A stretch of 32,115 nucleotides of DNA from Sterolibacterium sp. (GTDB lineage Bacteria > Pseudomonadota > Gammaproteobacteria > Burkholderiales > Rhodocyclaceae), in contig JAHFRE010000022.1 of NCBI GenBank assembly GCA_023258955.1, forward strand, positions 1 through 32,115, given 5' to 3'. Both the position numbers and the translations under genes were made by a program. The notes beneath the pieces are model-generated. The model saw only the letters and a program-made list of their open reading frames with translations. It had not been told where the DNA came from and made no database searches. This document shows, piece by piece, positions 6,650 to 29,742 of this stretch (the stretch's first letter is position 1; every line of letters begins with the position of its first letter).

Positions 6650-6653
6650 GGCT

Positions 6654-7811: not shown

Positions 7812-7870
7812 GTCAGTATGGCCGGGCCGCGACCGAAGGAAGTCCCCGCGGGGCCCCAACGTACTGACCC

Positions 7871-7909
7871 GCCCCCTCGGGGGGCAGCGAACAAAGTGAG
7901 CGTGGGGGC
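7871..7909. repeat. GC-rich intergenic element, possible dispersed repeat
   Basis: Inside the 113-bp gap between ATPase and permease genes lies a 39-bp element with a perfect hairpin half (CCCCC-TC-GGGGG core near 7872-7883), followed by GCAGCGAACAAAGTGAGCG and a final GGGGGC that can alternatively pair with the first GCCCCC at 7871-7876. I recall very similar elements scattered between genes in betaproteobacterial genomes. Within this window I see only one copy. The two mutually exclusive pairings could affect read-through to the permeases, but this is inference. Confidence 0.5.
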
Positions 7910-7924
7910 AGTTTCATATTCGCC

Positions 7925-8614
7925 TCAGGCGCGCAGCTCCTCGCGCCGCGACAGCTCGCCCTTGTCCAGGTGCATCACGGCGCGGGCGTGGGCGGCGGCA
8001 CGGCTGTCGTGGGTGACCATGACGATGGTCTTGCCCATCTCCTCGTTGAGGCGGCAGAGCAGGCTCATCACCTCGGCGGCGGAGTCGCGGTCGAGGTCGC
8101 CGGTCGGTTCGTCGGCGACGATCAGGGTCGGATCGACCACCAGGGCGCGGGCGACGGCGACCCGTTGCTGCTGGCCGCCCGACAGTTCGTTGGGCCGGTG
8201 TTCGAGGCGGTCGCTGAGACCCACCAGCTGCAAGGCCAGGGTCGCGCGCTGGCGCCGCTCGGCGCGCGACAGCGAAGTCAGCAGCAGCGGCAGCTCGACG
8301 TTCTCCAGCGCCGAGAGCACCGGCATCAGGTTGTAGAACTGAAAGATGAAACCGATGTGGGCGGCGCGCCAGTCGGCCAGGGCGCGCTCGCCGAGGCCGA
8401 CGATGTCCACCCCCGCGACCACGATGTGGCCTTCGTCGGGCCGGTCGATGCCGGCGAGCAGATTGAGCAATGTGCTCTTGCCGGAGCCGCTGGGTCCCAT
8501 CAGCGCCAGGAACTCGCCGGCGCCGATGTCCAGGCTGACCCCCGAGAGCACGGCCACGGTCTGCTCGCCGCGGCGATAGCTCTTCACCACGCCATCGAGC
8601 GAGATCAGATTCAT
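7925..8614 (-). CDS. ABC transporter ATP-binding protein, MacB/LolD type
   Basis: A 229-residue nucleotide-binding domain, the usual length for a stand-alone LolD-type ATPase. All motifs are intact: Walker [10 protein letters not shown] from residue 40, Q-loop Q92 (FIFQFYN), signature LSGGQQQR from 144, Walker B LIVADEP from 164 with catalytic E169, D-loop GDLD and switch histidine H202. The start ATG overlaps the stop of the membrane-fusion gene by four bases (ATGA at 8611-8614), so translation is coupled. It powers the two FtsX-type permeases encoded downstream. The substrate is not evident. Lipoprotein release is less likely than export because the operon encodes a membrane-fusion protein. 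Confidence 0.95.
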
Positions 8615-9840
8615 TGCTTGGCGGCCAGCTTCACCGCCATGCCATCGACCAGCTTGTCGTCGGGCTTCAGCACCAGCTTGTCGCCGGCGCGCAGGGGCAC
8701 ACCGACACCGCTGACGACCAGCGCCTCGCCGAGCGTCTCGGCGCTCGCCACCTCCACCATCTTGAGCCTGCCCTCGTTGACCACGAAGACCACGCTCTTG
8801 CCGTCACGCTTGGCCAGCGCCAGCGGGTTGACGACGGTGCGCGGGCGGCGCTGCTCCGGCGCCACCGCCTGGGAGAGGAAAGCCACTTTGGCGCTCATCT
8901 CCGGCAGGATGCGCGCCCCCTGCCCCGGGTCACGATCGACGAAGCGCACCTTGGTCATCACCGTCGCCTTGGCCCGATCGACGGTCGGCACCAGGCGTGA
9001 GACGACGCCGCGAAAGCGCCGCTCGGGAAAAGCATCGAGCTGGATCTCGCAGGGTTGGTCGACCCTTATCTTCTGCAGATTGGCCTCGGACACGTCGGCC
9101 TCGACCTCCAGCGTGTCCATGTCGGCGACCGTCACCACGGCGCCCTTGGTGTCGAGCGAGGAGGAAAACGGCGTCACGGTATCGCCGACGTTGGCGTTCT
9201 TGGTCAGCACGACGCCATCGAAAGGGGCGCGGATCAGCGTCTGCGCCAGCGCCACCTCGGCGACGTTGGCGTTGGCCTGGGCCGCCGCCAGCGCGGCGCG
9301 GGCGCTGGTCTCGGCGGCGCTGGCCTTCAGGTAGCGGGCCTGGGCGGCGTCGACCGCCGACGCCGAGAGATATTTCTGCGCCGCCAGATCCTGGGTGCGG
9401 CGATTGGCCGCCGCCGCGTCGGTCATCTCCGCCTGGGCCTGATTGATGCCGGCGCGCGCCACCGCCACGTTGGCGCGCGCCTGGGCCAGGCTGGCCGTGA
9501 CGTCCTGGTTTTCGATGCGCGCGATCACCTCGCCGCGTTTGACCACGCTGCCTTCGACCACGCCCAGCCACTCGAGCCGGCCGCTGGCCTTGGACGCGAT
9601 CGCCGCCTTGCGCTGCGCCACCACGTAGCCAGCGGCGTTGAGCAGGGTGAGCCCCTGGTAGGGATAGGCGCTGCCCACCGTCACCGTCTCGACGTTGGGC
9701 TCGCCGAAGCCGCGCCCGACGAGCGCTGCGACGATCAGGAGCAGCGCCGCGGCGAGCAGCCAGCGGCGCCAGCGGCGTGTCTTGGAGCGACCGCCGGCAG
9801 CACGATCGATCCGTAGAGCTTGGAGGCCGGGACTGGACAT
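8611..9840 (-). CDS. Periplasmic adaptor (membrane-fusion) protein, HlyD/MacA-like
   Basis: A 409-residue protein from the ATG at 9840 ([13 protein letters not shown]). The frame extends to 9966, but that stretch crosses the promoter and the divergent hydrolase start, so I shortened it. An N-terminal signal anchor spans about residues 26-44 after an Arg-rich stretch. Next come a barrel-sandwich (lipoyl-like) half ending near [13 protein letters not shown], a long Ala/Gln-rich coiled-coil hairpin (about 110-195), the second lipoyl half ([19 protein letters not shown]), then beta-barrel and membrane-proximal domains. It links the inner-membrane transporter to an outer-membrane channel, which is not encoded here. 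It is the first gene of the operon. The 5' leader is about 22 bases with no clear Shine-Dalgarno. Confidence 0.92.
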
Positions 9841-9861
9841 GGTGACAAGCGTCTGGGGAAA

Positions 9862-9899
9862 AGGGAAAATTATAGGGCCTGGCGCAGGCGCCAGAATAG
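9862..9899 (-). promoter_or_regulatory. Predicted promoter of the export operon with a perfect dyad
   Basis: On the minus strand a consensus -10 box TATAAT lies at 9874-9869, predicting a start near 9862 and a 22-base leader. Just upstream, where the spacer and -35 should be, is a perfect inverted repeat CTGGCGC-AG-GCGCCAG at 9879-9894. No good -35 hexamer is seen at 16-18 bp spacing. A dyad in this place suggests an operator for a repressor or for a MerR-type activator. No regulator gene is adjacent. The same region must also serve the divergent hydrolase gene at 9923. Confidence 0.5.
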
Positions 9900-9922
9900 C
9901 GGCATAGACGAGGAGATGCACC

Positions 9923-10597
9923 ATGGGCGAGATGATCAAGTTCCAGCGACCGGATGGGCAGCGCATCGACGGCTACTTCGCCGACGCCGGCTCGGGCCGG
10001 CCGGGCGTCGTCGTGATCCAGGAATGGTGGGGGCTCAACCAGCACATTTGTTCGATCGCCGATCGGCTATCCGCCGCCGGCTACAACGCCCTCGCGCCCG
10101 ACCTCTATCGCGGCCGCGTCACCCAGCAACCCGACGAGGCCCAGCACATGATGACCGGCCTCGACTTCCCCGGCGCCACCCACCAGGACATCCGCGGCGC
10201 TGTGCAACACCTCGCCGCTATGGGCGCTCAGTTGGGTAGCAAGGTGGGGGTGATGGGCTATTGCATGGGCGGCGCCCTGACCATCGCCGCCGCGGTACAC
10301 TTGCCGGAGATCGCTGCGGCGGTCTGCTTCTACGGCATCCCCGACCAGGGCTTCGCCGATCCGGCCAAGATCGCCTGTCCCTTCCAGGCGCACTTCGCCA
10401 GCCGCGACAACTGGTGCACGCCGCAAGCGGTCGATGCGCTGGAGCGCGCGATGATCGCCGCCGGCAAGCTGCCCGAGATCCATCGCTACGAGGCCGACCA
10501 CGCCTTCTGCAACCTGACCCGGCCCGAGGTCTACGATGCGCGCTGCGCCAGCCTCGCCTGGGATCGCACGCTCGCCTTCTGGAAGAAGAATCTGTAG
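9923..10597 (+). CDS. Dienelactone hydrolase family protein
   Basis: A 224-residue alpha/beta hydrolase. The Cys-Asp-His triad of dienelactone hydrolases can be placed at C114 (GYCMGG), D162 (SRDNWC) and H193 (ADHAFCN). The conserved glutamate that activates the cysteine is in QEWWGLN (E34). Length agrees with the family (about 230). The start is supported by AGGAG at 9911-9915, seven bases before the ATG. True dienelactone hydrolases act in chlorocatechol degradation, but many family members sit elsewhere and are general carboxyl-ester or lactone hydrolases. With no catechol genes nearby the substrate is open. It is read divergently from the export operon and converges on the dehydrogenase, with the two stop codons directly abutting at 10597/10598. 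Confidence 0.93.
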   Translation: MGEMIKFQRPDGQRIDGYFADAGSGRPGVVVIQEWWGLNQHICSIADRLSAAGYNALAPDLYRGRVTQQPDEAQHMMTGLDFPGATHQDIRGAVQHLAAMGAQLGSKVGVMGYCMGGALTIAAAVHLPEIAAAVCFYGIPDQGFADPAKIACPFQAHFASRDNWCTPQAVDALERAMIAAGKLPEIHRYEADHAFCNLTRPEVYDARCASLAWDRTLAFWKKNL

Positions 10598-14909: not shown

Positions 14910-15917
14910 ATGCGCATCGAACACATCCGTCAGCGGTTGCGCGCCCTCGGCGCCAAAGCCTGTCACGAGGAGGCGCTGCTGCGCACCTGGTTGCAGGCGC
15001 AAGCGCAAAACCAGCGGCGCCGGCCCGATCCGCCGCAGCGATTGGCGCAGGCCTGGCCCGGCTTGGCCCTGGAGCTGGCGGCGCTGGCGCGCCTGGTCTC
15101 GGAACACCCCGGCGAGGATGCCTGCTCGCGCCTGCTGATCGGACTTTCCGACGGCCACAGCGTCGAGAGCGTGCTGCTGCCGCGCCACGGCCTGTGCGTG
15201 TCCACCCAGGTGGGCTGCGCCGTCGGCTGCCTGTTCTGCATGACCGGCAGAAGCGGTCTGCTGCGCCAGCTCGAAGCCGCCGAGATCGTCGCCCAGGTGG
15301 TGCTCGCCCGCTCGCTGCGCGAGGTGCGCAAGGTGGTATTCATGGGCATGGGCGAGCCCGCCCACAACATCGACAACGTGCTCGAAGCGATCGAATTGCT
15401 CGGCACCCTGGGCGGGATCGGGCACAAGAATCTGGTCTTCTCGACCGTCGGCGACCGGCGCGTCTTCGCGCGCCTGCCGGCGGGCCGGGTGAAGCCGGCG
15501 CTGGCGCTGTCGCTGCACACCACCCGCGCCGACTTGCGCGCCCGCCTGCTGCCGCGCGCCGCAGCCATCGCGCCGGCGGAACTGGCCGAACTCGCCGAAG
15601 ACTACGCGCGCGCCACCGGCTATCCGATCCAGTACCAGTGGGTGCTGCTCGCCGGCGTCAATGACGGCGACGACGAAGTCGATGCCATCGCCCGCCTGCT
15701 CGCGGGCAAGTACGCGGTGATGAACTTCATTCCCTACAACGCCGTGGCCGGGCTTGAGTTTCACCGGCCGAGCTGGGCGCGCGCCGCGGAGATGGCCAGA
15801 CAGTTGCAAGGTCGCGGCGTGCTGACCAAGCTGCGCCAGTCGGCGGGGCAGGACATCGACGGCGGCTGCGGCCAGCTGCGCGCGCGGCTGGCTGTCAATA
15901 CAAGCCCTTGTCGTTGA
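14910..15917 (+). CDS. RlmN/Cfr-family radical SAM RNA methyltransferase (short paralogue)
   Basis: A 335-residue protein of the RlmN/Cfr family. The cluster motif CAVGCLFC supplies C103, C107 and C110. GMGEP at 146-150 is the SAM-binding motif, SLHTT is at 201-205, and the methyl-carrying cysteine is C320 in DIDGGCGQLR. Both cysteines needed for the ping-pong C-methylation are therefore present. Compared with E. coli RlmN (about 384 residues) the N-terminal helical domain is shorter. This is probably a paralogue; the housekeeping rlmN of such genomes usually sits next to ndk and ispG, which are not here. A2503 of 23S rRNA or a tRNA is the plausible target but unproven. The stop overlaps the convergent hemerythrin-fusion gene by 23 bp. 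No Shine-Dalgarno is obvious. Confidence 0.9.
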   Translation: MRIEHIRQRLRALGAKACHEEALLRTWLQAQAQNQRRRPDPPQRLAQAWPGLALELAALARLVSEHPGEDACSRLLIGLSDGHSVESVLLPRHGLCVSTQVGCAVGCLFCMTGRSGLLRQLEAAEIVAQVVLARSLREVRKVVFMGMGEPAHNIDNVLEAIELLGTLGGIGHKNLVFSTVGDRRVFARLPAGRVKPALALSLHTTRADLRARLLPRAAAIAPAELAELAEDYARATGYPIQYQWVLLAGVNDGDDEVDAIARLLAGKYAVMNFIPYNAVAGLEFHRPSWARAAEMARQLQGRGVLTKLRQSAGQDIDGGCGQLRARLAVNTSPCR

Positions 15918-18510
15918 GGAAGGCGCTGTACTTGCGATCCTCGTCGAGGACGTGGCGCACGATCCAGTCTTCCATGAATTTCATGAAGCCGGCCTGGTCG
16001 GGAACGGCGCCGCCCAGCACCCGCTCCCGGTACTCGCTGACCTGGGTCATCAGCTGGCCGTGCTTCTTGGCGTGGCTCTCGGCCTCCTCATAGCCGTAGA
16101 GCCGCATCAGCTTCTCCTCGGCGGCGAAGTGGTAGCCGGTGTAGTCGACCAACGCCTCCAGGGCTCCGGACAGCGCCGCACCGTCGCAGCCCATCTGCAC
16201 CTGCTGCGCGATGGTGTTGGCGATGGCGATCAGTCGTTTATGGTGGGCGTCGAACTGCGCCACGTTCACGCCGTAGCTCTCGTTCCAGACGAACAAGCCG
16301 TCCGCCTGCTCGTTGCTATGCACCATGCGCGCCGCCCGCTGCTGGTAGCTCTCGAGGATCTTCCAGCGCAGTATCGGCACGTTGCGGAACAGGTCGCCGT
16401 GGATCTGCACCGTGGTCGTCTCTTCCAAGGCGCGCAGGCGAAACAGGTCGTGCATGTTGAGGACGGCCTCTTCCTCGCCAAAGAAGTCGCGCGGCCCGAG
16501 AACGTCGAGCACCTTGGTGCCGAGGACGCGTTCGACGCGGCCGCTGCGGATGATGTTGATCAGCGTCACGTCCTTGCCGCTGATGAATTCGCCGGCGGCA
16601 AAATGCCGCTCCGTGGCACCGTCGATGATGCGGCCGAGCACCGCCACCGGCAGGCCTTCGGAGAACAGGCTGGTGGTGTTGAGGAAGCTGCGCATCGCCG
16701 ACATGCGCAGCAGGCGGATCAAGAGGCCGTTACGGCGGATGACGGCGGCGTAGAGGCCGATCGGGATGCGTAGCAGGCGCACGAAGGAGGAGGCGCGGTA
16801 GGTGTGTTGAAACGGCCTCTTGTCGAGGATCGCGTCGTCGCCGATCAGCGAGCCGACCGACAGGCTGCCCAGCATCTTGTCGCTGGTGCGGATCTTCTCC
16901 ACCTGGCCTGAGAGCAGCAGCAGGATCTCCTGCGGCATCTCGCCGTCCTTGATGAAGATCGCACCCGGATTGATTTCGCTGATCGGCAGGTTGACCAGCA
17001 TGCGCAGGTCGTGCAGCGCCACCCCCGGCAGATTGGCGTCGAGGTAGGCGAATGCCTGGCGGCGCAAGCCGTCGGCCACACCCTCGACCAGCACGTCGAC
17101 GGTGCCGAAGGAGGCGGAGGAGCCGATCTCCCTCTCCTCCGGCGTCAACTCCGAGGCGCGGTGGGCGAGCAGGATGCGCGCCGACTTGTCTTCCTTGAAA
17201 TCCTTGGCCTCGCCGTGGATCAAGCCGCCGCCGATGTCGATCTTCTTCAGATCGTAGGCCGCCAGATAGGCGGCGCGGGTGCGCTCGAAGCCGGCCTGGT
17301 CGATTCCCGGTTGGTCGGCCTGGCTGGTGACCATGCCGCGCAAGACGTCGAGGGCGACGATGTCGGCAAAGTGGGCGTAGCTCTTGTAGCCTTCGCCCCA
17401 GAGGGCGCGGAACACCAAGATGTTGGTCTCGACCGGATGCGGCGAAAATATCGGCATCACCTCCAGCCCCTCGACGTCGTTCCAGGTGTCGAAGGCCAGG
17501 TCCTTGACCTCGAAGAAATCGCCGAACTGCTCGTCCTCGATGCCGAGCAGGGCGCCCAGCTTCTTCGCCGCCGAAGCGCGCACCAGCGGCGTGGCGAAGT
17601 AGCGGATGCGGCGGCCGGCGCGCATCAGCGCCGTCAGGCCGGCGAAGTGATCGTCGTGGGCGTGGGTGTGGAAGATGCCGTCGACCTGATCGATGCCGAT
17701 GCCCAGCGCCGACAGGATGTTGACCAGGTGCGGTCCAGCGTCGATCAGGTAGAGGCTGCCCTGATAGGTGATGATGCTGGACATGGTCGGGCGGTTGATG
17801 TCCCAGCCGTCGCCCTCGCCCGAGTGGATCACCGAAAAATATTCCGAGTCGAACCTGCGGTAACCGAGCGGATAGGCGCACTCGTAGTTGAGTCCGGCGG
17901 CCAGGTTGAGATCGACCGTCACCGCCTCGCCGGCGTGGGAGAACTCGAACACGTTGGGCTTGAGCCGGCGCAGCTGCACGCCGGGGACGATCTCCACCGC
18001 AGTTTCGCCGACGATCCGGGTGTCGACGAACTCGCTGGTCGGCTTGATCCGGCCGAAGGCGAACTTCAGCTTGAGCCGCATCATCTGCTCGGCCTGGGCC
18101 TCCGGCACCCCCGCCTCCATGATCTCTTCGCGCGACACCAGGCCGTAATTGCCGCGGTAGATGTAGCGCAGCTGCGACTCGACCTGATCGGCCGAACCGA
18201 TCAACAGCGGCTTCTTGCCGGTGTTGTTGGGATGACCGGGCAGCAGCATGCCCTGCTTGTAGAGCATCTGCAACACGGGAAACTCGGCGAGGTTGGCGAA
18301 TTCGGCGTTTTGCAGCGAAACGTCGGAGAGCAGGATGGCGTTCGGTCCCGTCTCGCAAGCTACACCCTTGACCTCCTGCGGCAGGATCAGGCCGCGCTTG
18401 ATCAGGTGCTTGACCGCGTCGGCGGGGCAGCCGCAGAGCACACGCAGATTGGCTTCGGGAACCTCCACCCACTGGATCCCGCGCGTGACATCGATCTTGT
18501 GAATTCCCAT
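15895..18510 (-). CDS. Multidomain sensor: MBL fold + two cyclic-nucleotide-binding domains + hemerythrin
   Basis: An 871-residue fusion. Residues 1-235 are an unassigned N-terminal region. Residues about 236-440 are a metallo-beta-lactamase fold with HTHAHDDH at 281-288, H358, D383 and H432 as likely further ligands. Residues about 505-600 and 620-725 each resemble a cyclic-nucleotide-binding beta-roll (GEMPQEILLLLSGQVEKI; AGEFISGKDVTLINIIRSG). Residues about 738-868 are a bacteriohemerythrin with a full ligand set: H756 or H757, HxxxE at 794-798, HxxxH at 813-817 and HxxxxD at 853-858, which binds O2 at a di-iron site in known members. The whole reads as an oxygen- or NO-linked sensor controlling a hydrolase or oxidoreductase. 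No membrane segment is present. GAGG lies directly ahead of the ATG, and a TAAAAT at 18553-18548 (minus) may be its own -10 box after iorB. Confidence 0.92.
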   Translation of the reverse strand: MGIHKIDVTRGIQWVEVPEANLRVLCGCPADAVKHLIKRGLILPQEVKGVACETGPNAILLSDVSLQNAEFANLAEFPVLQMLYKQGMLLPGHPNNTGKKPLLIGSADQVESQLRYIYRGNYGLVSREEIMEAGVPEAQAEQMMRLKLKFAFGRIKPTSEFVDTRIVGETAVEIVPGVQLRRLKPNVFEFSHAGEAVTVDLNLAAGLNYECAYPLGYRRFDSEYFSVIHSGEGDGWDINRPTMSSIITYQGSLYLIDAGPHLVNILSALGIGIDQVDGIFHTHAHDDHFAGLTALMRAGRRIRYFATPLVRASAAKKLGALLGIEDEQFGDFFEVKDLAFDTWNDVEGLEVMPIFSPHPVETNILVFRALWGEGYKSYAHFADIVALDVLRGMVTSQADQPGIDQAGFERTRAAYLAAYDLKKIDIGGGLIHGEAKDFKEDKSARILLAHRASELTPEEREIGSSASFGTVDVLVEGVADGLRRQAFAYLDANLPGVALHDLRMLVNLPISEINPGAIFIKDGEMPQEILLLLSGQVEKIRTSDKMLGSLSVGSLIGDDAILDKRPFQHTYRASSFVRLLRIPIGLYAAVIRRNGLLIRLLRMSAMRSFLNTTSLFSEGLPVAVLGRIIDGATERHFAAGEFISGKDVTLINIIRSGRVERVLGTKVLDVLGPRDFFGEEEAVLNMHDLFRLRALEETTTVQIHGDLFRNVPILRWKILESYQQRAARMVHSNEQADGLFVWNESYGVNVAQFDAHHKRLIAIANTIAQQVQMGCDGAALSGALEALVDYTGYHFAAEEKLMRLYGYEEAESHAKKHGQLMTQVSEYRERVLGGAVPDQAGFMKFMEDWIVRHVLDEDRKYSAFLNDKGLY

Positions 18511-18581: not shown

Positions 18582-19172
18582 CTAGCTGCAGACGCTCGTC
18601 GCCGGCAAGCGCAACGCCCAGCCACGCGCCAGGGCCTCGAGATTGGCCTGGCGCTGGCGCTCGCCGCTCAGCGCCGCGGTCGCTGCGCAAAGCTCGTCGT
18701 AGGTGAAAGGGAAGTCGTCGTGGCTGGCACCGAAGCCCATCAGCACCAGATTCGCGACCAGCGGATTACCCATCGCCAGCGCCACCGCGTCGGCGTCGCA
18801 GCGGTGGATGCTCACCCCCATCTCGGCGAGCGGGCCGGCCAAGCGTTGGTCGGGAAAGGCCGTCGCCGCCGCGACGTTGACCACGCAGACGGCGCCGGCG
18901 CCGCCGTTGGCGCGGCGCAGATAGGTGAGGTTGCGATGCGCCTCCATGCAGTCCAGGCCCAGCAGCAGGTCGGCGTCGCCCTCGCAGACCAGCGGGCCGG
19001 AAAAATCGCCGATCTTGACGTGGGTCATGACCGAGCCGCCGCGCTGGGCCATGCCGAAGGTCTGCGAGCCGAGCACCGCAACCTGGTTGCGCCGCGCCAC
19101 CTCGGTGAGCACCTTCGCCGCGAACAGCACACCCTGGCCGCCGACGCCGGCGACGATCGCCTGGCACCTCAT
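18582..19172 (-). CDS. iorB: Indolepyruvate:ferredoxin oxidoreductase beta subunit
   Basis: A 196-residue protein, normal for IorB. The N-terminus MRCQAIVAGVGGQGVLFAAK carries the GVGGQG motif of the gamma-domain of 2-oxoacid oxidoreductases, followed by TFGMAQRGGSV, a family hallmark. The ATG overlaps the iorA stop (ATGA at 19169-19172), so subunits are made in stoichiometric coupling. A much longer frame continues upstream to 21893 on the same strand, but it runs out of frame through iorA and is an artefact. Together with IorA it oxidatively decarboxylates aryl-pyruvates (indolepyruvate, phenylpyruvate, hydroxyphenylpyruvate) to aryl-acetyl-CoA with reduction of ferredoxin. It is the last gene of the operon. 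Confidence 0.96.
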   Translation of the reverse strand: MRCQAIVAGVGGQGVLFAAKVLTEVARRNQVAVLGSQTFGMAQRGGSVMTHVKIGDFSGPLVCEGDADLLLGLDCMEAHRNLTYLRRANGGAGAVCVVNVAAATAFPDQRLAGPLAEMGVSIHRCDADAVALAMGNPLVANLVLMGFGASHDDFPFTYDELCAATAALSGERQRQANLEALARGWALRLPATSVCS

Positions 19173-22100
19173 GCGCGCACCTCCGCGCCTGGCAGCGGCT
19201 GGATGGCGCCCTGGGCGCAAACCTGCACGCACATGCCGCAATCGATGCAGGTGCGCCGGTCGATGTCCACCAGTCCGTCCGGGCCGGCGGTCAGCGATGG
19301 GCATTCGAACCAGGTGGTGCAGTAGCCGCAGCCGATGCACACGCCGGTAGCCGGCATGGCGATGGCGCTGCGCGGACACTGCTCGGCGCAAACGCGGCAG
19401 GCCGTGCATTTGGCCGGGTCGATCCGGTAGGCGCCATCGACCGCGGTGATGGCACCGGTCGGACAGACATCGACGCAGATGTCGCAATGGGTGCATACCC
19501 CGCAGTGGAAGCAGCGCTCGCGCGCTTCGCGCGCGGCCGCGGCGGAGCCCAAACCGAAGTTGACCTCCTCGAAGTTCCAGATCGAATCGGCAGGGGCGCG
19601 ATGGCGCGCCTGCGCGCGCGCGACCTTGCGAAAGAAGTTGAGCTTGATCTCGCTCGCCAGCGCCGCCGGTCCCGCCTGGCGCGCCCGCGCCGACTCGCCG
19701 GCGGCGGCGAGGGCGATGCCCGGGCCGCGCGCCAGGGCCAGCGCCTCGGCGTCGATCGCCGCGCCGCCAAGGCGCTCGGCGATGGCCAGGGCGGCGCGCT
19801 TGCCGGCGTTCACCGCACCGACCACCGTGCCCGAGCCGCGTGACGACGCGTCGCCACCGGCGAAGATACGCGCCGAGCTGGTCCGGCCCCAGGCGTCGAT
19901 GGGCAGCCGGCCCTGGTCGCCGAGGTTCGGGCCGCCGGGCTGTTGTCCTTCGAGGTAGGCCAGCTCCGCGTCGCCGCCGATGCAGACCAACACGCTGTCC
20001 ACCTCGCTCGTCCGCGTCACGCTGGTGAGCGGTGCGGCGAGCTCGCGCAGCTTCAGCAGCAAACCGCCGGCAGCGGGCTCGAAAGCCACCGGCACCAGTT
20101 GCTGGTGGAAGACGATCCCTTCCTCGCGCGCGACCTCGACCTCCTCGGCGATGGCCAGCAGGAAGTCGTAATAGACATCGACCGCGGCGCCGCGACGGCG
20201 CGCACTGCGCGCGGCATCGACGGCGGTGTTGCCGCCGCCGATCACCGCCACCCGGCTGCCCAGCTCGGGCGCCTGCCCTGCCCGCAGGCGCGCCAGATAG
20301 TCGAGCCCGGAGAGGACCCCGGGGTTGTCTTCGCCGGGGAGGGCGAGCCGCCGCTGCTTCCAGGCGCCGGTCGCCAGATACACAGCGTCGAAGCGCTCCA
20401 GCGCCGACCAGGCGAGATTTTCGCCCAGACGCACGCCGGTGTGCAGCGTCACGCCGAGCGCGGCGAAGACCTCGAGTTCGCGGGCGAGCACGGCGACCGG
20501 CAGGCGATACTCGGTGATCGCCCAGCGCAGCATGCCGCCGACCTCCGGTAGCGCCTCGAACACTTCGACGGCGTGACCGAGGCGGGCGAGCTGGTAGGCG
20601 CAGGTGAGCCCCGAGGGACCGCCGCCGACGATGGCCACGCGTTTGCCGGTAGCCGGCGCCGCCGCGGCCGGCGCGGCGCGGCCGCGGTCGCCGGCCAGGC
20701 GTTCGATGGCGTTGATCGACAGGGCGCCGTCGTAGCCGCTGCGGTTGCAGGCGCTCTCGCAGGGATGGGGGCAGACCCGTCCCAGGGTCGAGGGAAAGGG
20801 ATGCTCGGCGTAGAGCGTGGCGGCCGCCTCCTCCCAGCGGTCCTCTGCCGCCAGGCTCATCAGCCGTTCGATGTCGTTGCCCGCCGGACAAGCCTCGGCG
20901 CAGGGCGACAGGCGGTCCTGGTGGCGCGGCAGCCAGTCCGCCTGGAGTGCCGCGCCGGCGGCCGCGCGCGGCACCGGACCGTGCTTCACCTCCACCGGCA
21001 TCGCCGTCCTGCCCGGGCCCAGCCCCTTGACCTGCGTGACGCAGGCGTAGCGCGCGACGATCACGGCGATGCCGCCGTCCGCGGCGCGGCTGTGCTCGAG
21101 CGCGTCGAGCAGGGCGCGCTGGAATGCGCCCTGCTCGTGCGGATCGGCGTGCGCCAGGTAGGTGACGCCGCAGCCCTTGATCAGGCCCTCGAGATCGATC
21201 CGGCCGCCGGGGTGACCGTCGGCGGTGAGGCCGCATTCGGGTGTCGGCTGCATGCCGGTCATGCCGGTGGTGCCGTTGTCCAGAACCAGCAGCACGAAGC
21301 GGGCGCCGTTGTAGACGGCGTTCTCCAGCCCGGCGGCACCGGAGTGGAAGAAGGTGCCGTCGCCGATGGTGGCGAAGATCGGCGGCGACTTTCCGTCCTG
21401 GGCGTAGGCGTGGTAGAAGCCGGCGGCCATGGTGACCGAAGCGCCCATGTCGTGCACCGTGTCTACCGCGCCCTGGTTGATGCCCAACGTGTAGCAACCG
21501 ATGTCGCCGGGGAAGATCGCATCGGGAAAGTTGCGCTTGAGCGAGTAGAAGGCGGCGCGATGGCCGCAGCCGGGGCAAAAGGTCGGGCGGCGGATCGGCA
21601 GTTCGAGTCCGGTCACCAGAGCGGCCAGGGTGCTGGGCGCGCGCGCCGTGGCTTGCAGACCGGACTGGTGCGCCGCCGCAACCAGGATGTTCTCGATGAC
21701 GCCCGGCGTCAGCTCGCCGTGCGACGGTACGTGATTGGTCAGCCGCCCCCACACCGGGATGGCCAGCCTGATCTGCAGTTCGATCGCGGCGTCGGTCTCC
21801 TCGAGGACGATCAGGGTGTCGCAGCGGCCGGCAAAATCGGCGACCAGCTGCTGCGGCAGGGGGAAGGCGGTGGCGATCTTCAGCACCGGACAAAGATCGG
21901 CGAGGCCCATGGTCGGCAACAGATCGTTCAGATAGGCGTAGCAGACGCCCGCGGCGACGATGCCCAGCTGCGCCCGCTCGAGGCCGGCGGGAAAGTGGGC
22001 GCGGTTGCCGGGAAAGGTCTCGAACTCGGCGGCGATGGCCGAGAGCTTCTGGTTCAACTGGGCGTGCAGCTGCATCCTGGCGCGCGGGCCGGCCGCCCAG

Positions 22101-22699
22101 CGCCGCGGATTCTTCTCGAAGTCGGCGCAGCTATAGGGAGCCGCCACCGGCTTGCATTCGATCGCCTGCTCGGAGTGGCAGACGCGTACCGTCGGCCGCA
22201 GCAGCACCGGGATCTGGTGGCGCTCGGACAATTCGAAGGCCAGGGCCACCATGTCCCGCGCTTCCTGCGGGCTCGACGGATCGAGGGCGGGAATCTTGGA
22301 GAACAGCGAGAACAGGCGGGAATCCTGCTCGGTCTGCGAGGAGTGCAGGCCGGGATCGTCGGCGACGATCAGGATCAGGCCGCCGACCACCCCGATGTAG
22401 GCCGAGGACAGCGCCGGATCGGCCGCCACGTTGAGGCCCACCTGCTTCATCGCGACGGCAGCGCGCTTGCCCGAATAGGCGGCGGCCAGCGCCGTCTCCA
22501 GCGCCACCTTCTCGTTGGTCGACCACTCGGCGTAGAGCGACAGCCCGAGCTCCTTGCGGAACTCGACCACGGCCGGCAGGATCTCCGAACTGGGCGTGCC
22601 CGGATAGGCGGTCATGAACTGGCAGCCGGCTTCGACCAGGCCGCGCGATATGGCCTCGTTGCCCAGCAGAATGCGATGGTCTCCCGCCTTCATGTCCAT
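19169..22699 (-). CDS. iorA: Indolepyruvate:ferredoxin oxidoreductase alpha subunit fused to a GltD-like NAD(P)H/FAD oxidoreductase
   Basis: A 1176-residue protein, about twice a normal IorA. Residues 1-565 are the pyrimidine- and pyrophosphate-binding parts, with AYPGTPSSEI (31-40), CPGCGHR (375-381) and the thiamine-diphosphate motif starting GDGTFFHSG (446). Residues about 590-980 are GltD-like: an N-terminal cluster site (C600, C604, C643, C647, C651), the FAD motif VGGGPSGL (691-698), the NAD(P)H motif IGGGNTAVDAA (820-830) and IFAGGD (945-950). Residues 1063-1165 hold a six-Cys motif (CFHCGVCTHCDIC...CP) and three further four-Cys ferredoxin-like groups beginning at 1098, 1121 and 1151. 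Start ATG 22699 has AGGAGA six bases upstream. The architecture implies direct electron transfer between 2-oxoacid oxidation, Fe-S clusters and NAD(P). Both halves are complete and in one frame, so it is not a sequencing join. Confidence 0.93.
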   Translation of the reverse strand: MDMKAGDHRILLGNEAISRGLVEAGCQFMTAYPGTPSSEILPAVVEFRKELGLSLYAEWSTNEKVALETALAAAYSGKRAAVAMKQVGLNVAADPALSSAYIGVVGGLILIVADDPGLHSSQTEQDSRLFSLFSKIPALDPSSPQEARDMVALAFELSERHQIPVLLRPTVRVCHSEQAIECKPVAAPYSCADFEKNPRRWAAGPRARMQLHAQLNQKLSAIAAEFETFPGNRAHFPAGLERAQLGIVAAGVCYAYLNDLLPTMGLADLCPVLKIATAFPLPQQLVADFAGRCDTLIVLEETDAAIELQIRLAIPVWGRLTNHVPSHGELTPGVIENILVAAAHQSGLQATARAPSTLAALVTGLELPIRRPTFCPGCGHRAAFYSLKRNFPDAIFPGDIGCYTLGINQGAVDTVHDMGASVTMAAGFYHAYAQDGKSPPIFATIGDGTFFHSGAAGLENAVYNGARFVLLVLDNGTTGMTGMQPTPECGLTADGHPGGRIDLEGLIKGCGVTYLAHADPHEQGAFQRALLDALEHSRAADGGIAVIVARYACVTQVKGLGPGRTAMPVEVKHGPVPRAAAGAALQADWLPRHQDRLSPCAEACPAGNDIERLMSLAAEDRWEEAAATLYAEHPFPSTLGRVCPHPCESACNRSGYDGALSINAIERLAGDRGRAAPAAAAPATGKRVAIVGGGPSGLTCAYQLARLGHAVEVFEALPEVGGMLRWAITEYRLPVAVLARELEVFAALGVTLHTGVRLGENLAWSALERFDAVYLATGAWKQRRLALPGEDNPGVLSGLDYLARLRAGQAPELGSRVAVIGGGNTAVDAARSARRRGAAVDVYYDFLLAIAEEVEVAREEGIVFHQQLVPVAFEPAAGGLLLKLRELAAPLTSVTRTSEVDSVLVCIGGDAELAYLEGQQPGGPNLGDQGRLPIDAWGRTSSARIFAGGDASSRGSGTVVGAVNAGKRAALAIAERLGGAAIDAEALALARGPGIALAAAGESARARQAGPAALASEIKLNFFRKVARAQARHRAPADSIWNFEEVNFGLGSAAAAREARERCFHCGVCTHCDICVDVCPTGAITAVDGAYRIDPAKCTACRVCAEQCPRSAIAMPATGVCIGCGYCTTWFECPSLTAGPDGLVDIDRRTCIDCGMCVQVCAQGAIQPLPGAEVRA

Positions 22700-22783: not shown

Positions 22784-23872
22784 CTACATGGCCTGCGCCA
22801 GCGCCTCGAGGAAGCGCTGGTTGTCGTGCTCCAGGCCGATGGTGACGCGCAGGTGTTCGGGCATCGCGTAGTTGGCCAGGGGCCGCACGATGACGCCCTG
22901 CTTGAGCAGCTTCAGATTGACGCCGGCGGCGTCACCGGCGTGGAAGGTGATGAAATTGCCTTCGCCGGGAATGTGGCCCAGGCCCAGCCGCTTGAGGCCG
23001 GCGAGGATCTGCTCCATGCCGCGACGATTGGCGGCGAAGCTCTCGGCGAGGAAGGCGTGGTCGTTCAAGGCGCCGATGGCGCCGGCCAGGCCCAGATTGC
23101 CGACGTTGAAGGGCTGGCGCACCCGGTGCAGCAGGTCGATCAGTTCGGCCGAGCCGATGCCGAAGCCGACGCGCAGGCCGGCCAGGCCATAGACCTTGGA
23201 GAAGGTGCGGGTGATCAGCAGGTTGGGAAATTCCTTGAGCCAGGCCGTGGTGTCGGCGCGCAGCGACGGCGGCAGATATTCGTTGTAGGCCTCGTCCAGC
23301 ACCACCACCACTTCCCGGGGCACGGCGGCGATGAAGCGCTTCAGCGCTGGGTAGGGCAGGAAAGTTCCGGTCGGATTGTTCGGATTGGCGATCCACACCA
23401 GGCGCGTGTCGGCGCGGATCGCCGCGGCCATGGCGTCCAGATCGTGACCGAAGTCCTTGGCCTTCACCTCGATGCATTCGGCACCGGTGGACATGGTGGC
23501 CAGCGGGTAGACGGCGAAGGCGTGACGCGAGAACACCGCCGAGCGACCGGGAGCGAGAAAGGCGCGCGCCACCAGGTCGAGCACGTCGTTGGAACCGTTG
23601 CCCAGGACGATGCATTCTTGGCCGAGGCCGAGCCGCTGCGCCAGTGCGTCGGTCAGCTCGAACTGGTCGGGATAGCGCTCGCAACCGGAGAGCGCCGCAT
23701 CGACCGCGGCGCGCGCCCCCGGGCTCATGCCCAGGGGGTTCTCGTTGGAGGCGAGCTTGACGATGCCGGCCGGGTCGAGGCCCATCTCTCTTGCCAGCGC
23801 GGTGATCGGCTTGCCCGGCTGGTAGGGTGAAATGGCCCGGATGTAGGCCGGCGCTTGGCTCGCTATCGTCAT
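22784..23872 (-). CDS. Class I/II PLP aminotransferase, HisC-like
   Basis: A 362-residue protein of the histidinol-phosphate aminotransferase type. The PLP lysine is K226 in TRTFSKVYGLAGLR. ANPNNPTGT (162-170) gives the cofactor-ring asparagine, and D193 and Y196 (VLDEAYNEY) complete the site. LASNENPLG (40-48) is the HisC N-terminal signature. HisC-like enzymes often accept aromatic amino acids, and the position directly ahead of iorAB suggests it makes the aryl-pyruvate for IorAB from Phe, Tyr or Trp. A true histidine-biosynthetic role is the alternative, but no other his gene is near. AGGAGA lies about nine bases before the ATG. It follows trpB2 with a 21-bp gap. Confidence 0.93.
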   Translation of the reverse strand: MTIASQAPAYIRAISPYQPGKPITALAREMGLDPAGIVKLASNENPLGMSPGARAAVDAALSGCERYPDQFELTDALAQRLGLGQECIVLGNGSNDVLDLVARAFLAPGRSAVFSRHAFAVYPLATMSTGAECIEVKAKDFGHDLDAMAAAIRADTRLVWIANPNNPTGTFLPYPALKRFIAAVPREVVVVLDEAYNEYLPPSLRADTTAWLKEFPNLLITRTFSKVYGLAGLRVGFGIGSAELIDLLHRVRQPFNVGNLGLAGAIGALNDHAFLAESFAANRRGMEQILAGLKRLGLGHIPGEGNFITFHAGDAAGVNLKLLKQGVIVRPLANYAMPEHLRVTIGLEHDNQRFLEALAQAM

Positions 23873-23893: not shown

Positions 23894-25246
23894 TCAGCCG
23901 ACCTTGGGCAGGTTGTGCAGCGCTGCAGCGATCGCCTCTTCCGGATAGTCGTAGTCTTCGAGCTTGCCCGCCAGGAAGCGGTCGTAGGAGGCCATATCGA
24001 AGTGGCCGTGGCCGGACAGGTTGAAGAACAGCACCTTCGGCTCGCCGGTCTTCTTGCAGTTCAGCGCCTCGTCGATCACGGCGCGGATGGCGTGGTTCGA
24101 TTCCGGCGCCGGGATGATGCCTTCGGCGCGGGCGAATTGCACGCCGGCGGCGAAGGTCGCCACCTGCGGTACGGACACCGCCTCCAGCACGCCCTCCTTG
24201 AGCAGCTGCGAGACCAGGGGGCTGGCGCCGTGATAGCGCAAGCCGCCGGCGTGGATCGACGGCGGCATGAAGTCGTGGCCCAGGGTGAACATCAGGGACA
24301 GCGGCGTGTAGCCGGACTCGTCGCCGTAGTCGTAGGCGTAGTGGCCCTTGGTCAGGGTCGGACAGGAGGTCGGCTCGACCGCCACCAGGCGCACCTTCTT
24401 GCCGGCGGCCTTGTCGGCGAGGAAGGGGAAGGCGACGCCGGCGAAGTTGGAACCGCCGCCGTGCGGCGCGAACACCATGTCGGGATAGACACCGATCTTT
24501 TCGAACTGCTTCTTCGCCTCGAGGCCGATCACCGTCTGGTGCAGCAGCACGTGGTTCAGCACCGAGCCCAGGCCGTACTTGGTGTCCTCGCGTCCGGCCG
24601 CCTCTTCAACCGCCTCGGAGATCGCCAGTCCCAGCGAACCGGGGTTGTTCGGATCGCGCGCCAGCGCGTTGCGCCCCGACTGGGTGAGGTTGGTCGGGCT
24701 GGCCAGCACCTCGGCGCCCCAGGTCTGCATCATCGAGCGGCGGAAGGGCTTCTGTTCGTAGCTGACCTTGACCATGTAGATGCGCAGCTCGATGCCGAAC
24801 ATCTGCGCCGCGAAGGACAGCGAAGAACCCCACTGGCCGGCGCCGGTCTCGGTGGTCATGCGCTTGATCCCGGCCTGCTTGTTGTAGTAGGCCTGGGCCA
24901 CGGCCGAGTTCGGCTTGTGCGAACCGGCGGGCGAGACGGCCTCGTTCTTGTAGTAGATCTTCGCCGGCGTACCCAACGCCTGCTCCAGTCTCGTGGCGCG
25001 GCACAGCGGGCTCGGACGCCACAGCGCGTAGATCTCGCGCACCGGCTCGGGGATGGCGATCCAGCGCTCGGCCGACATCTCCTGCTCGAGGATGGGCATG
25101 GAGAAAATCTGCAGCATCTGCTCCGGGCCGACCGGCTTGCCGTCCGGTCCCAGCGGCGGCGCCGGCGGATTGGGCATGTCGGCGACGACGTTGTACCAAT
25201 GGGTCGGCATCTCGGATTCTTCGAGCAATATCTTGTGTGCGGTCAT
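23894..25246 (-). CDS. trpB2: TrpB-like PLP enzyme (tryptophan synthase beta, TrpB2 type)
   Basis: A 450-residue protein, longer than housekeeping TrpB (about 400) and matching the TrpB2 class. The PLP lysine is K111 in AGSHKPNSA; TrpB2 members have this form where TrpB1 has HK-T/L-N. The catalytic glutamate is E133 in TETGAGQWG. The phosphate-binding glycine loop is HGGGSNFAG. An N-terminal extension (residues 1-60, [20 protein letters not shown]) is typical of TrpB2. No trpA is adjacent, as usual for TrpB2, which can work without TrpA on indole and serine or phosphoserine. As first gene of the aminotransferase-iorAB operon it may salvage indole or supply tryptophan. A very strong Shine-Dalgarno (AAGGAGGA, seven bases ahead) precedes ATG 25246. 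Confidence 0.93.
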
Positions 25247-25484: not shown

Positions 25485-26981
25485 ATGAACACTGAGCAAC
25501 TGGATAAGTTCGGCGCCGAGATCTCCGGCGTTCTCTATCAGTTCATCGTGCGGCCGTCCGGCATCTGGAAATTCATCTACGTCAGCCCGGGCATCACCGC
25601 GCTCTACGGCATCTCGCCGGAAGAGGCCTGCGCCGACCACACGGCGCTGACCCGCTGCATCATCGACGACGATCTCGAGGCCTACAAGGCGTCGCGCGAG
25701 CACGCGACGCAGACCCTGTCCTTCTGGCAGCACGAGCACCGCATGCGCTCCAAGAGCGGCGATCAGAAGTGGGTGCGCGCCCAGGCGGTGCCGGAGCAAC
25801 AGCCCGACGGCAGCGTGCTCTGGAGCGGCATGCTGAGCGACATCACCGCCAACAAGGAGGCCGAGGAGCAGCTGCGCCTGGCCAAGGCCGAGGCCGACCG
25901 CGCCAACAGCGCCAAGTCGCGTTTTCTCGCGGCGGCCAGCCACGACCTGCGCCAGCCGCTGGCGGCGCTGTCGCTCTACGTCGGTCTGCTGAAGAAGAAG
26001 GTGGCGCCGGCCCAGGGCAAGCTGGTCGCCGACATCGAGAGCTGCGCCGCCAGCCTCTCCGAGCTCCTGAACGACCTGCTCGACGTGAGCAAGCTGGAGG
26101 CGGGCGTGGTCGTGCCCAAGCCGACCGATTTCGCGCTCGACGAAATGCTCAACGCGCTCACCTCGGTGCACGCCGCCGAGGCCAGGGTCAAAGGCTTGCA
26201 GCTGCGCGCCCGCTGCTCCAGCATCGCCGTGCGCACCGACCGGCAACTGCTGCAGCGGATCGTCGGCAATCTGCTGGCCAACGCCATCGCCTACACCGAC
26301 GCCGGCGGTGTCCTGGTGGCCTGCAGGCGCCATCAAGGCAGATTCTGGGTGGAGATATGGGACACCGGCATCGGCATCGCCGCCGACAAGACCGAGCTGA
26401 TCTTCGAGGAATTCCGCCAGCTCGACGACGGCGCGCGCAACCGCGGCAGCGGCCTCGGACTAGCCATCGTCGCCAAGACCGCAGCGCTGCTGGGTCTGAA
26501 GGTCCGCCTGCGTTCGCGTCCGGGTCGCGGCTCGATGTTCGCCGTCGAGCTGCCGCTGGGGCAGGCGCCGCAAACGGAGGCGACGCCGAAAGCAGCGGCC
26601 GCCGCGGCGATGCTGCGCATCGCGCTGGTCGAAGACAACGCCAGGCTGCTCGCCGTGCTCGCCACGTCGCTCGGTGAGAGCGGCCACGCGGTGGTCGCCG
26701 CCAGCAGCGGCAAGGAGCTGATCGAACGCCTGGATGGGCTGGCGCCGGACATCGTCGTCTCCGACTACCGCCTCGCGGCGAAGGAGACCGGCTTCGAGGT
26801 GATCTCGGCGGTGAGAAAAACTTTCGGCAAAGCGGTCCCGGCGCTGCTCATCACCGGCGACACCGACCCGGCGCTGGTGCGCAGCATGGCCAGTCGCGGC
26901 ATCGCGGTGCACTTCAAGCCGATGCAAATCGACGCGCTGCTGGGCTACATCAGCGCCGCCACCGCGCCGACCGGACCCTGA
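25485..26981 (+). CDS. PAS-domain hybrid histidine kinase with C-terminal receiver
   Basis: A 498-residue soluble hybrid kinase. Residues about 10-125 are a PAS domain with PAC-like end (WSGMLSDITANKEAEEQL), joined by a short helix to the HisKA domain with phospho-acceptor H153 (AASHDLRQPLAAL). The HATPase domain follows with N262/N266, DTGIG (293-297) and GSGLGL (321-326). After an Ala-rich linker the receiver has E383/D384, phosphate acceptor D427 (VVSDYRL), T457 and K478. There is no membrane segment, so the signal is intracellular; the PAS domain could hold a cofactor but no haem or flavin residue is diagnostic. No output domain or separate response regulator is adjacent. It is divergent from the FNR-type-site operon and could share its control region. 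The Shine-Dalgarno is weak. Confidence 0.93.
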   Translation: MNTEQLDKFGAEISGVLYQFIVRPSGIWKFIYVSPGITALYGISPEEACADHTALTRCIIDDDLEAYKASREHATQTLSFWQHEHRMRSKSGDQKWVRAQAVPEQQPDGSVLWSGMLSDITANKEAEEQLRLAKAEADRANSAKSRFLAAASHDLRQPLAALSLYVGLLKKKVAPAQGKLVADIESCAASLSELLNDLLDVSKLEAGVVVPKPTDFALDEMLNALTSVHAAEARVKGLQLRARCSSIAVRTDRQLLQRIVGNLLANAIAYTDAGGVLVACRRHQGRFWVEIWDTGIGIAADKTELIFEEFRQLDDGARNRGSGLGLAIVAKTAALLGLKVRLRSRPGRGSMFAVELPLGQAPQTEATPKAAAAAAMLRIALVEDNARLLAVLATSLGESGHAVVAASSGKELIERLDGLAPDIVVSDYRLAAKETGFEVISAVRKTFGKAVPALLITGDTDPALVRSMASRGIAVHFKPMQIDALLGYISAATAPTGP

Positions 26982-28551: not shown

Positions 28552-29742
28552 CTATTTTCCCGGGTCCTTGAAGTTGGGCACCTGGTCGAATTCGACGTTG
28601 TAGAGCTTGCCGTCCTTCAGTTTTTCGACGCGGCGAACGTAGACCGTCTGCACCGGATCGCGCGTCGCCGGATCGATCGTCAGCGGCCCGCGCGGACTGT
28701 CGATCTTCATGCCCTTCAACACTTCCATCGCGCGGTCGCCGTCCATCTTGCCACCCAACTTGGCCACGACCTGGTAGATCGCCGCCATGCCGTCCCAGCC
28801 GCCCACCGCCATAAAGTTCGGCCGGCCGGGACCAATTTCGGCGTAGGCCTTGAGGAACTCACGGTTCTCGGCGCTGTCGTGGGCGACCGAGTAGTGGTGG
28901 GTGGTCACCACGCCGAGGGGAGCGTTGCCCATCGCCTCGATCAGGCTGTCCTCGGTGACGTCGCCGGTGGCGATCAGCTTGATCCCGGCCTTGTCCAGTT
29001 CGCGCTCGGCGAAGCCCTTCATGAAGGCCACCGGCTGTCCGCCCTGCGGCAGGAAGATGAACACCGCCTGCGGCTTTTCGTCCTTGATGTGGCGCAGCGC
29101 CGGCCCGAAGTCGGGGCTGTTCGCCGGCGTCCGCACCGAGCCGACGATCTGCCCCCCGCCGGCGGTGAAGGTCTTCTTGAACTGGGTTTCGGCGTCGATC
29201 CCCGGACCGTAGTCGGCGACCAGGGTATAGACCTGTTTGATGCCGTTGGCGAGCGCCCAGGTGGCCAGCGGTGCGGTGACCTGCGGCAGGGTCATCGAGA
29301 CCCGGGCGATGTAGGGCGAGCGCGAGCTGATGATGGTGGTCGCCGCATTCATCACGATCATCGGCTTCTTGGCCTCGGTGGCCAGCGGCGCGACCGACAG
29401 CGCGTTGGGGGTCAGGCCGAAGCCGGCCAGGAAATCCACCTCGTTGATGGTGAGCAGTTCCTGGGCCTGCCGCTTTGCCACTTCCGGCGCCATGCCGGTG
29501 GTATCTTTGACGATCAGTTCGATCTTGCGTCCGGCCACGACATCGCCGTGGGCCTTCATGTAGGCGCGCGCACCGTTCAAGATCTGGCGGCCGATGTCGG
29601 CGAACGGTCCGCTCATTTCCAGGACCACGCCGACCTTGATCGGCTCAGCGGCAAGCACCGGGCTTGGAAGTCCGCCCGCGGCCAGCATGCAGGCGGCGGC
29701 CGCGATCCAGGCGCGGCGCTGGGAATCGACTGGTTTGCTCAT
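28552..29742 (-). CDS. ABC transporter substrate-binding protein, branched-chain amino acid (LivJ/LivK) type
   Basis: A 396-residue periplasmic binding protein. The N-terminus has a Sec signal peptide ending near VLA before AEPIKVG. The mature start IKVGVVLEMSGPFADIGRQ is typical of the Peripla_BP_6 family, as are the paired lobes. The start ATG at 29742 has AGGAG six to seven bases ahead. Related proteins in aromatic-degrading bacteria bind aromatic acids or amides as often as leucine, so the ligand is open. No permease or ATPase genes for the LivHMGF system are adjacent, so it is an orphan that must borrow a transporter or act in sensing. It heads a unit with the YihY and MetH-activation-like genes. 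Confidence 0.93.
   Translation of the reverse strand: MSKPVDSQRRAWIAAAACMLAAGGLPSPVLAAEPIKVGVVLEMSGPFADIGRQILNGARAYMKAHGDVVAGRKIELIVKDTTGMAPEVAKRQAQELLTINEVDFLAGFGLTPNALSVAPLATEAKKPMIVMNAATTIISSRSPYIARVSMTLPQVTAPLATWALANGIKQVYTLVADYGPGIDAETQFKKTFTAGGGQIVGSVRTPANSPDFGPALRHIKDEKPQAVFIFLPQGGQPVAFMKGFAERELDKAGIKLIATGDVTEDSLIEAMGNAPLGVVTTHHYSVAHDSAENREFLKAYAEIGPGRPNFMAVGGWDGMAAIYQVVAKLGGKMDGDRAMEVLKGMKIDSPRGPLTIDPATRDPVQTVYVRRVEKLKDGKLYNVEFDQVPNFKDPGK

Follow-up and report, generated by a model that had tools for sequence, protein, structure and literature searches.

A gene pair on the minus strand of the 32,115-nucleotide stretch of Sterolibacterium sp. DNA analysed here (the window) probably encodes an NAD+-linked indolepyruvate (arylpyruvate) oxidoreductase (IOR) which would make NADH directly, with no soluble ferredoxin. 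The larger gene is a fusion, confirmed in this work, of iorA with a gene for a PRK12771/DsrL-type protein, and the smaller one is iorB (Table 1). The first-pass annotation, made from the sequence alone, had described an IorA fused to a GltD-like NAD(P)H/FAD oxidoreductase at this place, and this was borne out by the open reading frame, by the NCBIfam and Pfam matches and by a junction that recurs in other genomes.

Table 1. Features of the fusion gene and its operon in the window
Feature	Position	Strand	Details
TrpB-like PLP enzyme (trpB2 type), at the head of the probable operon	23894..25246	minus	NF009057, 722 bits
hisC-like aminotransferase, directly upstream of iorA	22784..23872	minus	TIGR01141, 333 bits
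iorA fusion ORF	19169-22699	minus	1176 aa, without internal stop
IorA catalytic half (aa 1-560)	21020..22699	minus	POR_N + TPP_enzyme_C; TIGR03336 at aa 9-560, 585 bits
Variable linker (aa 561-588)	20936..21019	minus	50-64% identity to five fusions
PRK12771-type NAD(P)H/FAD module (aa 589-1058)	19526..20935	minus	partial Fer4_20; PRK12771 at aa 590-1116, 435 bits
YYD (aa 843-845) at the NADP phosphate-binding YRR position, then four-residue deletion	20165..20173	minus	48-row alignment
Module's own two-cluster tail (aa 1059-1116)	19352..19525	minus	C1063/C1066 and Cys 1069-1108 for two [4Fe-4S]
IorA's own ferredoxin tail (aa 1117-1170)	19190..19351	minus	Cys 1121-1161, two [4Fe-4S]
iorB (196 aa, POR gamma domain)	18582..19172	minus	4-bp overlap of its start with the iorA stop

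The Pfam domains found in the fusion are POR_N, TPP_enzyme_C, Fer4_20, Pyr_redox_2 and two Fer4 diclusters. The inserted unit is a whole flavoprotein with its own dicluster tail, placed between the thiamine half and the ferredoxin tail of IorA. The IorA half and the module are 59-81% identical to those of five other fusions, the linker being less conserved. With 585.4 bits the TIGR03336 (IorA) score lies below the curated NCBIfam cut-off of 650.9, as do the scores of six of the seven unfused IorA proteins scanned (604-632 bits), and only L033 exceeds it (662.5 bits). The PRK12771 (NF009410) score of 435.4 bits, or 437.2 for the module alone, is likewise below its curated cut-off of 516, with positions 40-563 of the 566 in the profile covered. 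The module does show the PRK12771 order of GltD-like clusters, FAD, NAD(P) site and dicluster tail, and the remainder has the POR_N and TPP domains, the TPP and cluster residues, the two-cluster tail and the adjoining IorB that are expected of IorA. A plain GltD was ruled out for the module, as the GltD-type models score 176-207 bits versus 435 for PRK12771. Matches of the module in the PDB are NfnL, StnC and NfnABC. AlphaFold models of the full-length protein and of the module were poor (mean pLDDT 58.8 and 54.8); in the module model only the Rossmann core is fair, and its best matches are NfnABC, NfnL, StnC, GltD and DPD (Z 23-29, rmsd about 5).

A chance event or a chimeric assembly is very unlikely and was ruled out as the source of the fusion, because an identical junction is found across many separately assembled genomes and the module is under purifying selection (dN/dS 0.17-0.46 in five pairs). 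The Cys-rich C-terminal region had previously been regarded as an enlarged IorA tail with 18 Cys. All 18 (aa 1063-1161) are present and invariant in the 15 fusion rows aligned, but the enlargement is the module's own tail: aa 1060-1116 match five stand-alone modules with 47.8-61.6 bits versus at most 38.5 bits for 12 IorA tails, whereas for aa 1117-1170 the scores are 36.6-55.1 bits against the seven unfused IorA tails that are nearest and at most 35.4 bits against the stand-alone modules. Five more distant IorA tails reach 33.1-35.4 bits with this last segment, no better than the top value of the modules. Since the first half of the Cys-rich region thus belongs to the inserted protein and the second to IorA, an enlarged IorA tail could be ruled out.

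Conservation of the cofactor and cluster residues was assessed in 15 aligned full-length fusion rows, 13 of them distinct. Invariant throughout are Gly446, Asp447 and Asn475 of the TPP motif (G446-D447 ... N475), Cys 600, 604, 643, 647 and 651 together with Glu666 in the module, and Cys 375, 378, 402 and 553 in the IorA half; by analogy with other oxoacid oxidoreductases we take the latter four to be the probable ligands of the catalytic [4Fe-4S] cluster. The FAD and NAD(P) motifs that had been noted earlier are also kept on alignment, with small swaps at residues 691, 693 and 696 in the FAD motif at aa 691 and invariant positions 821-824 in the NAD(P) motif at aa 820. The Cys of the IorA tail are at least 90% conserved in 24 rows, 10 of which are unfused IorA.

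The module had furthermore been credited with its own N-terminal Fe-S cysteines. Five such Cys are present, but the set is incomplete: the CxxC with which NfnB and GltD start is missing there and is found instead at 1063/1066 on the C-terminal side, within the segment aa 1030-1069, and the same holds for PRK12771-type relatives. An earlier single match between NfnL and the tail was weak (i-Evalue 14), but an HMM built from 45 tail segments matched 3/3 GltD N-termini with 22-31 bits (best of 150 shuffles 5.0); these three are all that a motif search recovered from 12 stretches, one of them of only 2 bases, the other nine giving none. The relocated CxxC implies that one cluster would be held from both ends of the module. 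According to the ligand list for NfnB (PMC7596348, excerpt), Cys604, Cys643, Cys647 and Glu666 would bind the proximal cluster and Cys600 and Cys651 would provide half of the ligands of the distal one, the correspondence being our own; set against PRK12771/DsrL, two probable distal ligands of the fusion come from the C-terminal side. From the GltD-type pair, the two diclusters and the catalytic cluster, the fusion probably contains seven [4Fe-4S] clusters with both diclusters counted, and all cofactor sites are presumably occupied.

In the mechanism that we infer, the thiamine half of IorA and IorB would decarboxylate the 2-oxoacid to the aryl-acetyl-CoA, and the two low-potential electrons would pass from the catalytic [4Fe-4S] cluster to the two-cluster tail of IorA, next to the cluster pair in the adjoining module tail, and finally through the GltD-type clusters, distal before proximal, and FAD to NADH. 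The net reaction would be indolepyruvate + CoA + NAD+ -> indoleacetyl-CoA + CO2 + NADH. Because the FAD/NAD(P) motifs and the cluster ligands are retained, electrons are likely to reach a pyridine nucleotide directly in this way; the earlier proposal that electrons of aryl-pyruvate oxidation go straight to NAD(P)+ is upheld to this extent, with YYD pointing to NAD as the acceptor. IOR is normally tied to ferredoxin and is therefore near-reversible. From general potentials we assume that the electron step to NAD+ in this fusion is about 0.18 V downhill, which would make the reaction effectively one-way. If this is true, the wired-in NAD+ outlet would render the IOR step strongly downhill and free the owner from the ferredoxin pool at this point.

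The IorA ferredoxin tail itself is fully conserved, so ferredoxin may still act as an acceptor. The enzyme could then serve ferredoxin through this tail and use NAD+ as a second outlet, the module acting as a ferredoxin:NAD+ oxidoreductase as well, in line with the tungsten AOR of Aromatoleum aromaticum, which uses NAD+ through its FAD subunit and also accepts viologen (PMC9295118, excerpt). The two module clusters directly in front of the IorA tail could, however, occupy the docking path of ferredoxin, and we regard such a dual-acceptor enzyme as unlikely. The first-pass annotation had also suggested that ferredoxin and NAD(P)H might be combined as in NfnB. The module is homologous to NfnL, and Arg732, aligning with NfnB R201, is kept in 15/15 rows, but StnC retains this Arg as well (R239), and its FAD is reported to be non-bifurcating (PMC10482914, excerpt). 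Among the subset of window genes scanned, moreover, no NfnA-like, HydBC-like or ETF-type partner was found. Nothing in the sequence evidence would seem to favour bifurcation, and we give hardly any credence to a bifurcating or confurcating enzyme that would couple ferredoxin to NAD(P) in the manner of NfnB.

The choice between NAD and NADP was analyzed in a motif alignment of 48 rows, comprising 19 fusions, 19 stand-alone modules assigned to PRK12771 by motif (one of which, L126, is without a visible tail) and 10 other GltD-like types that were set aside. The YRR that serves the 2'-phosphate in NADP-type GltD/NfnB proteins is absent from the window protein, which carries YYD. It is replaced by YYD or FYD with a four-residue deletion in 18/19 fusion rows, the sole exception being the fusion from Deferrisomatales (L032), and it is present in 17/19 stand-alone modules. 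As the two remaining ones (L127 and L003) are without YRR, the motif also varies without fusion. Among DsrL enzymes, those with YRR use NADP(H) and those without it NAD(H), as reported with the kinetics of three of them (PMC7596348, excerpt). On the basis of this rule, extrapolated from DsrL, and of the replacement of YRR by YYD/FYD, the fusion is predicted to prefer NAD+ over NADP+.

In the window trpB-like, hisC-like, iorA and iorB genes follow each other in one orientation, separated by 21, 84 and -4 bp. The hisC-like product is a candidate indolepyruvate/aromatic aminotransferase. A second hisC-like gene and a second trpB-like gene, each 35% identical, are present elsewhere in the genome. 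Within the stretches available, a trpB-like gene was found at 6 of 14 fused loci of the collection scan described below (L020, L023, L025 and L028 on the other strand; L030; L032), and a close hisC only at L030 (79%). These upstream genes would also suit an enzyme working in the reductive direction, in which NADH or NADPH drives the conversion of arylacetyl-CoA and CO2 to arylpyruvate for the synthesis of aromatic amino acids with the TrpB-like and HisC partners, and such reductive running of IOR is thought to occur in methanogens. The NAD-type motif and the location of the copies from the genus g2 in a catabolic operon argue against it, and starting from NADH this direction would, by general potentials, presumably be about 0.18 V uphill, so that we consider it highly improbable.

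For an oxidative, NAD+-linked enzyme, indolepyruvate is suggested as the substrate by the trpB-like and hisC genes upstream in the window and by the iaa-type operon of the g2 relatives. In 7/9 g2 fusion genomes (G340, G279, G383, G265, G427, G421 and G205) the fusion sits inside such an operon or closes it, on its single-chain IOR/CaiB side; the G205 contig carries only the single-chain IOR, the 417-aa gene and part of CaiB beside the fusion, and in the other two genomes (G409 and G362) the contig stops inside the fusion. Gene clusters were called with a home-made gene caller, and nine were common to the four g2 genomes compared (G340, G279, G383 and G265): a GntR regulator, hydantoinase A and B, an acyl-CoA dehydrogenase, a mutase, a Mo subunit, an unnamed 417-aa protein, the single-chain IOR and the fusion. 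CoA ligase, the FAD subunit of the Mo-hydroxylase and CaiB were matched in 3/4 and the B12-binding protein in 2/4. By these assignments the g2 genes correspond to those of the iaa operon, which encodes a pathway starting from indoleacetyl-CoA (PMC8360864, excerpt). The context in g2 would thus link IOR genes to anaerobic indoleacetate breakdown. Phenylpyruvate is a further possible substrate of the fusion, as IorAB of Aromatoleum is said to convert phenylpyruvate to phenylacetyl-CoA (PMC9765128, excerpt).

Orthologues of iaaF are present in 24/31 g2 genomes, including 8/9 of those with the fusion; in the ninth, G421, the contig with the fusion also bears genes for the mutase, Mo and CaiB. Sixteen of the 24 are without the fusion. 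Eight of these were examined by stretch, and all six stretches that are long enough (two were too short) carry the single-chain IOR and no fusion. By these counts the fusion is an optional extra IOR in the g2 iaa operon. At E 1e-90 no iaaF orthologue was found in the window genome (91% complete) or in G157, so that for the window protein the link to iaa comes from its relatives only. The single-chain IOR (PRK13029 type, about 1170 aa) was observed in the iaa-type operon in 13/13 g2 stretches long enough, with or without the fusion (L089-L092, L107-L109, L111-L113, L115, L116 and L155), which suggests that indolepyruvate enters the iaa pathway directly.

The collection was scanned with short exact peptide patterns of the window protein (P0001), from which distant fusions would escape, and 25 loci were obtained: 14 fusions, 10 unfused IorA and one other. 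Ten of the fusion loci are full length in one frame, three end at contig ends and one is broken into two frames. The fusion occurs in 9/395 genomes of the window's own family (five full-length copies, three partial ones and one in two frames) and in 9/31 genomes of g2 (six full length, three partial); these counts overlap, several copies from the numbered genomes being the same contigs as scan loci. Even samples of 369 genomes of the class and 398 of the phylum, outside of which the phylum of Deferrisomatales lies, yielded only the window's own genome, and on plasmids the fusion was found in none of 365 matching records when one place had to cover 80% of the query.

In the module tree the fused rows are on one side of a branch (14/33 rows, support 100/100), as they are in the IorA tree (15/59 rows, support 100/99), with long-branch warnings for both trees. 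Since each half forms one clade, a single origin of the fusion is favoured. Its IorA half falls together with unfused IorA proteins from deltaproteobacterial and Methylomirabilota MAGs, L033 being nearest, and stands apart from the bulk of the IorA of its own family; at least two more IorA genes, which lack the module, are present in the window genome. Tentatively, and as a whole slightly doubtful, the following history may be put forward: the module was inserted once, switched from NADP to NAD after the split from the Deferrisomatales relative, and the fusion was taken up into operons for anaerobic auxin (indoleacetate) use that already hold another IOR, of the single-chain kind. As a single-chain, ferredoxin-independent and NAD+-linked enzyme it would connect tryptophan breakdown to NADH for respiration at a committed step.

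When the fusion is compared with known systems, the expectation that it would change the energetics of anaerobic aromatic breakdown is tempered by its kin, since related oxidoreductases are already known that are NAD-linked through a separate flavoprotein subunit. PadEFGHI of Azoarcus evansii is, as we take it, a phenylglyoxylate:NAD+ oxidoreductase, i.e. a 2-oxoacid enzyme reducing NAD+ via a flavoprotein; unlike the fusion it presumably has PorA/PorB-type subunits and a separate flavoprotein gene and is not fused to IorA. PadG and PadI models were named by NCBIfam in comparison stretches, and none was found among the 25 listed of the 91 NCBIfam families matching the whole fusion protein, in which the IorA-type half appears instead. 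The pyruvate:NADP+ oxidoreductase of Euglena and Cryptosporidium is an oxoacid:ferredoxin oxidoreductase that became linked to pyridine nucleotides by gene fusion; in contrast to our fusion, PFOR is joined there to a P450-reductase-like module and NADP+ is used. The AOR of Aromatoleum aromaticum is likewise a ferredoxin-type enzyme with a FAD subunit and NADH (PMC9295118, excerpt), but it belongs to a different catalytic family and its FAD subunit is separate.

IorAB (TIGR03336/TIGR03334) shares the catalytic half, the IorB partner and the two-cluster tail, with 46-52% identity to ten unfused IorA, whereas in the fusion an NAD(P)H/FAD iron-sulfur protein of 530 aa precedes the tail as an insertion. 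PRK12771/NF009410 and DsrL have in common with the module the GltD-like clusters, FAD, the NAD(P) site and the two-cluster C-terminus, and DsrL-1 enzymes are also of the NAD(H) type (PMC7596348, excerpt); unlike these, our module is fused to an oxoacid oxidoreductase, and the fusions form their own branch. In StnC of Sporomusa ovata a GltD-like module is also fused to a cluster-rich partner with a linear electron path (PMC10482914, excerpt), but the partner is NuoG/FdhF and NADPH is used. The fusion would thus be a compact case of one GltD-like module plugged into unrelated low-potential enzymes. Searches of titles and starts of abstracts, outside of which most subscription papers fall, found no published description of it.

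A PRK12771-type gene beside PorA/PorB-like genes, adjoining iorA or within 5 kb of it, was found in 3/19 family stretches with ordinary IorA (L044, L084 and L088), a precedent for the pairing of such modules with oxoacid oxidoreductases. These stand-alone modules are probably part of NADP-linked oxoacid oxidoreductases with a separate flavoprotein. Near the other 16/19 and near the 10 unfused IorA (L033-L042) no module gene was found, which counts against a general link. The DsrL paper mentions, and sets aside, genes linked to those of pyruvate/ketoisovalerate:ferredoxin oxidoreductase (PMC7596348, excerpt).

The L030 copy (trpB2-hisC-iorA-iorB in genome G157, apparently the same gene as L057 and L077) changes frame near aa 340-364, so that it is in two pieces, and, outside the 15-row set, has Gly in place of Cys604; it is either a decaying gene or an assembly fault. 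In the window, the next gene after iorB in the same orientation (15895-18510, minus) encodes an 871-aa protein that combines a metallo-beta-lactamase fold with two cyclic-nucleotide-binding stretches and a bacteriohemerythrin. A hybrid histidine kinase gene (25485-26981, plus), whose best NCBIfam match, NahK/ErcS, is below the cut-off, is transcribed divergently to the trpB-like gene. Farther away, a Peripla_BP_6 (Liv-type) periplasmic binding protein (28552-29742, minus) and a MacB/FtsX, ABC and HlyD export set (5483-9966, minus) are encoded.
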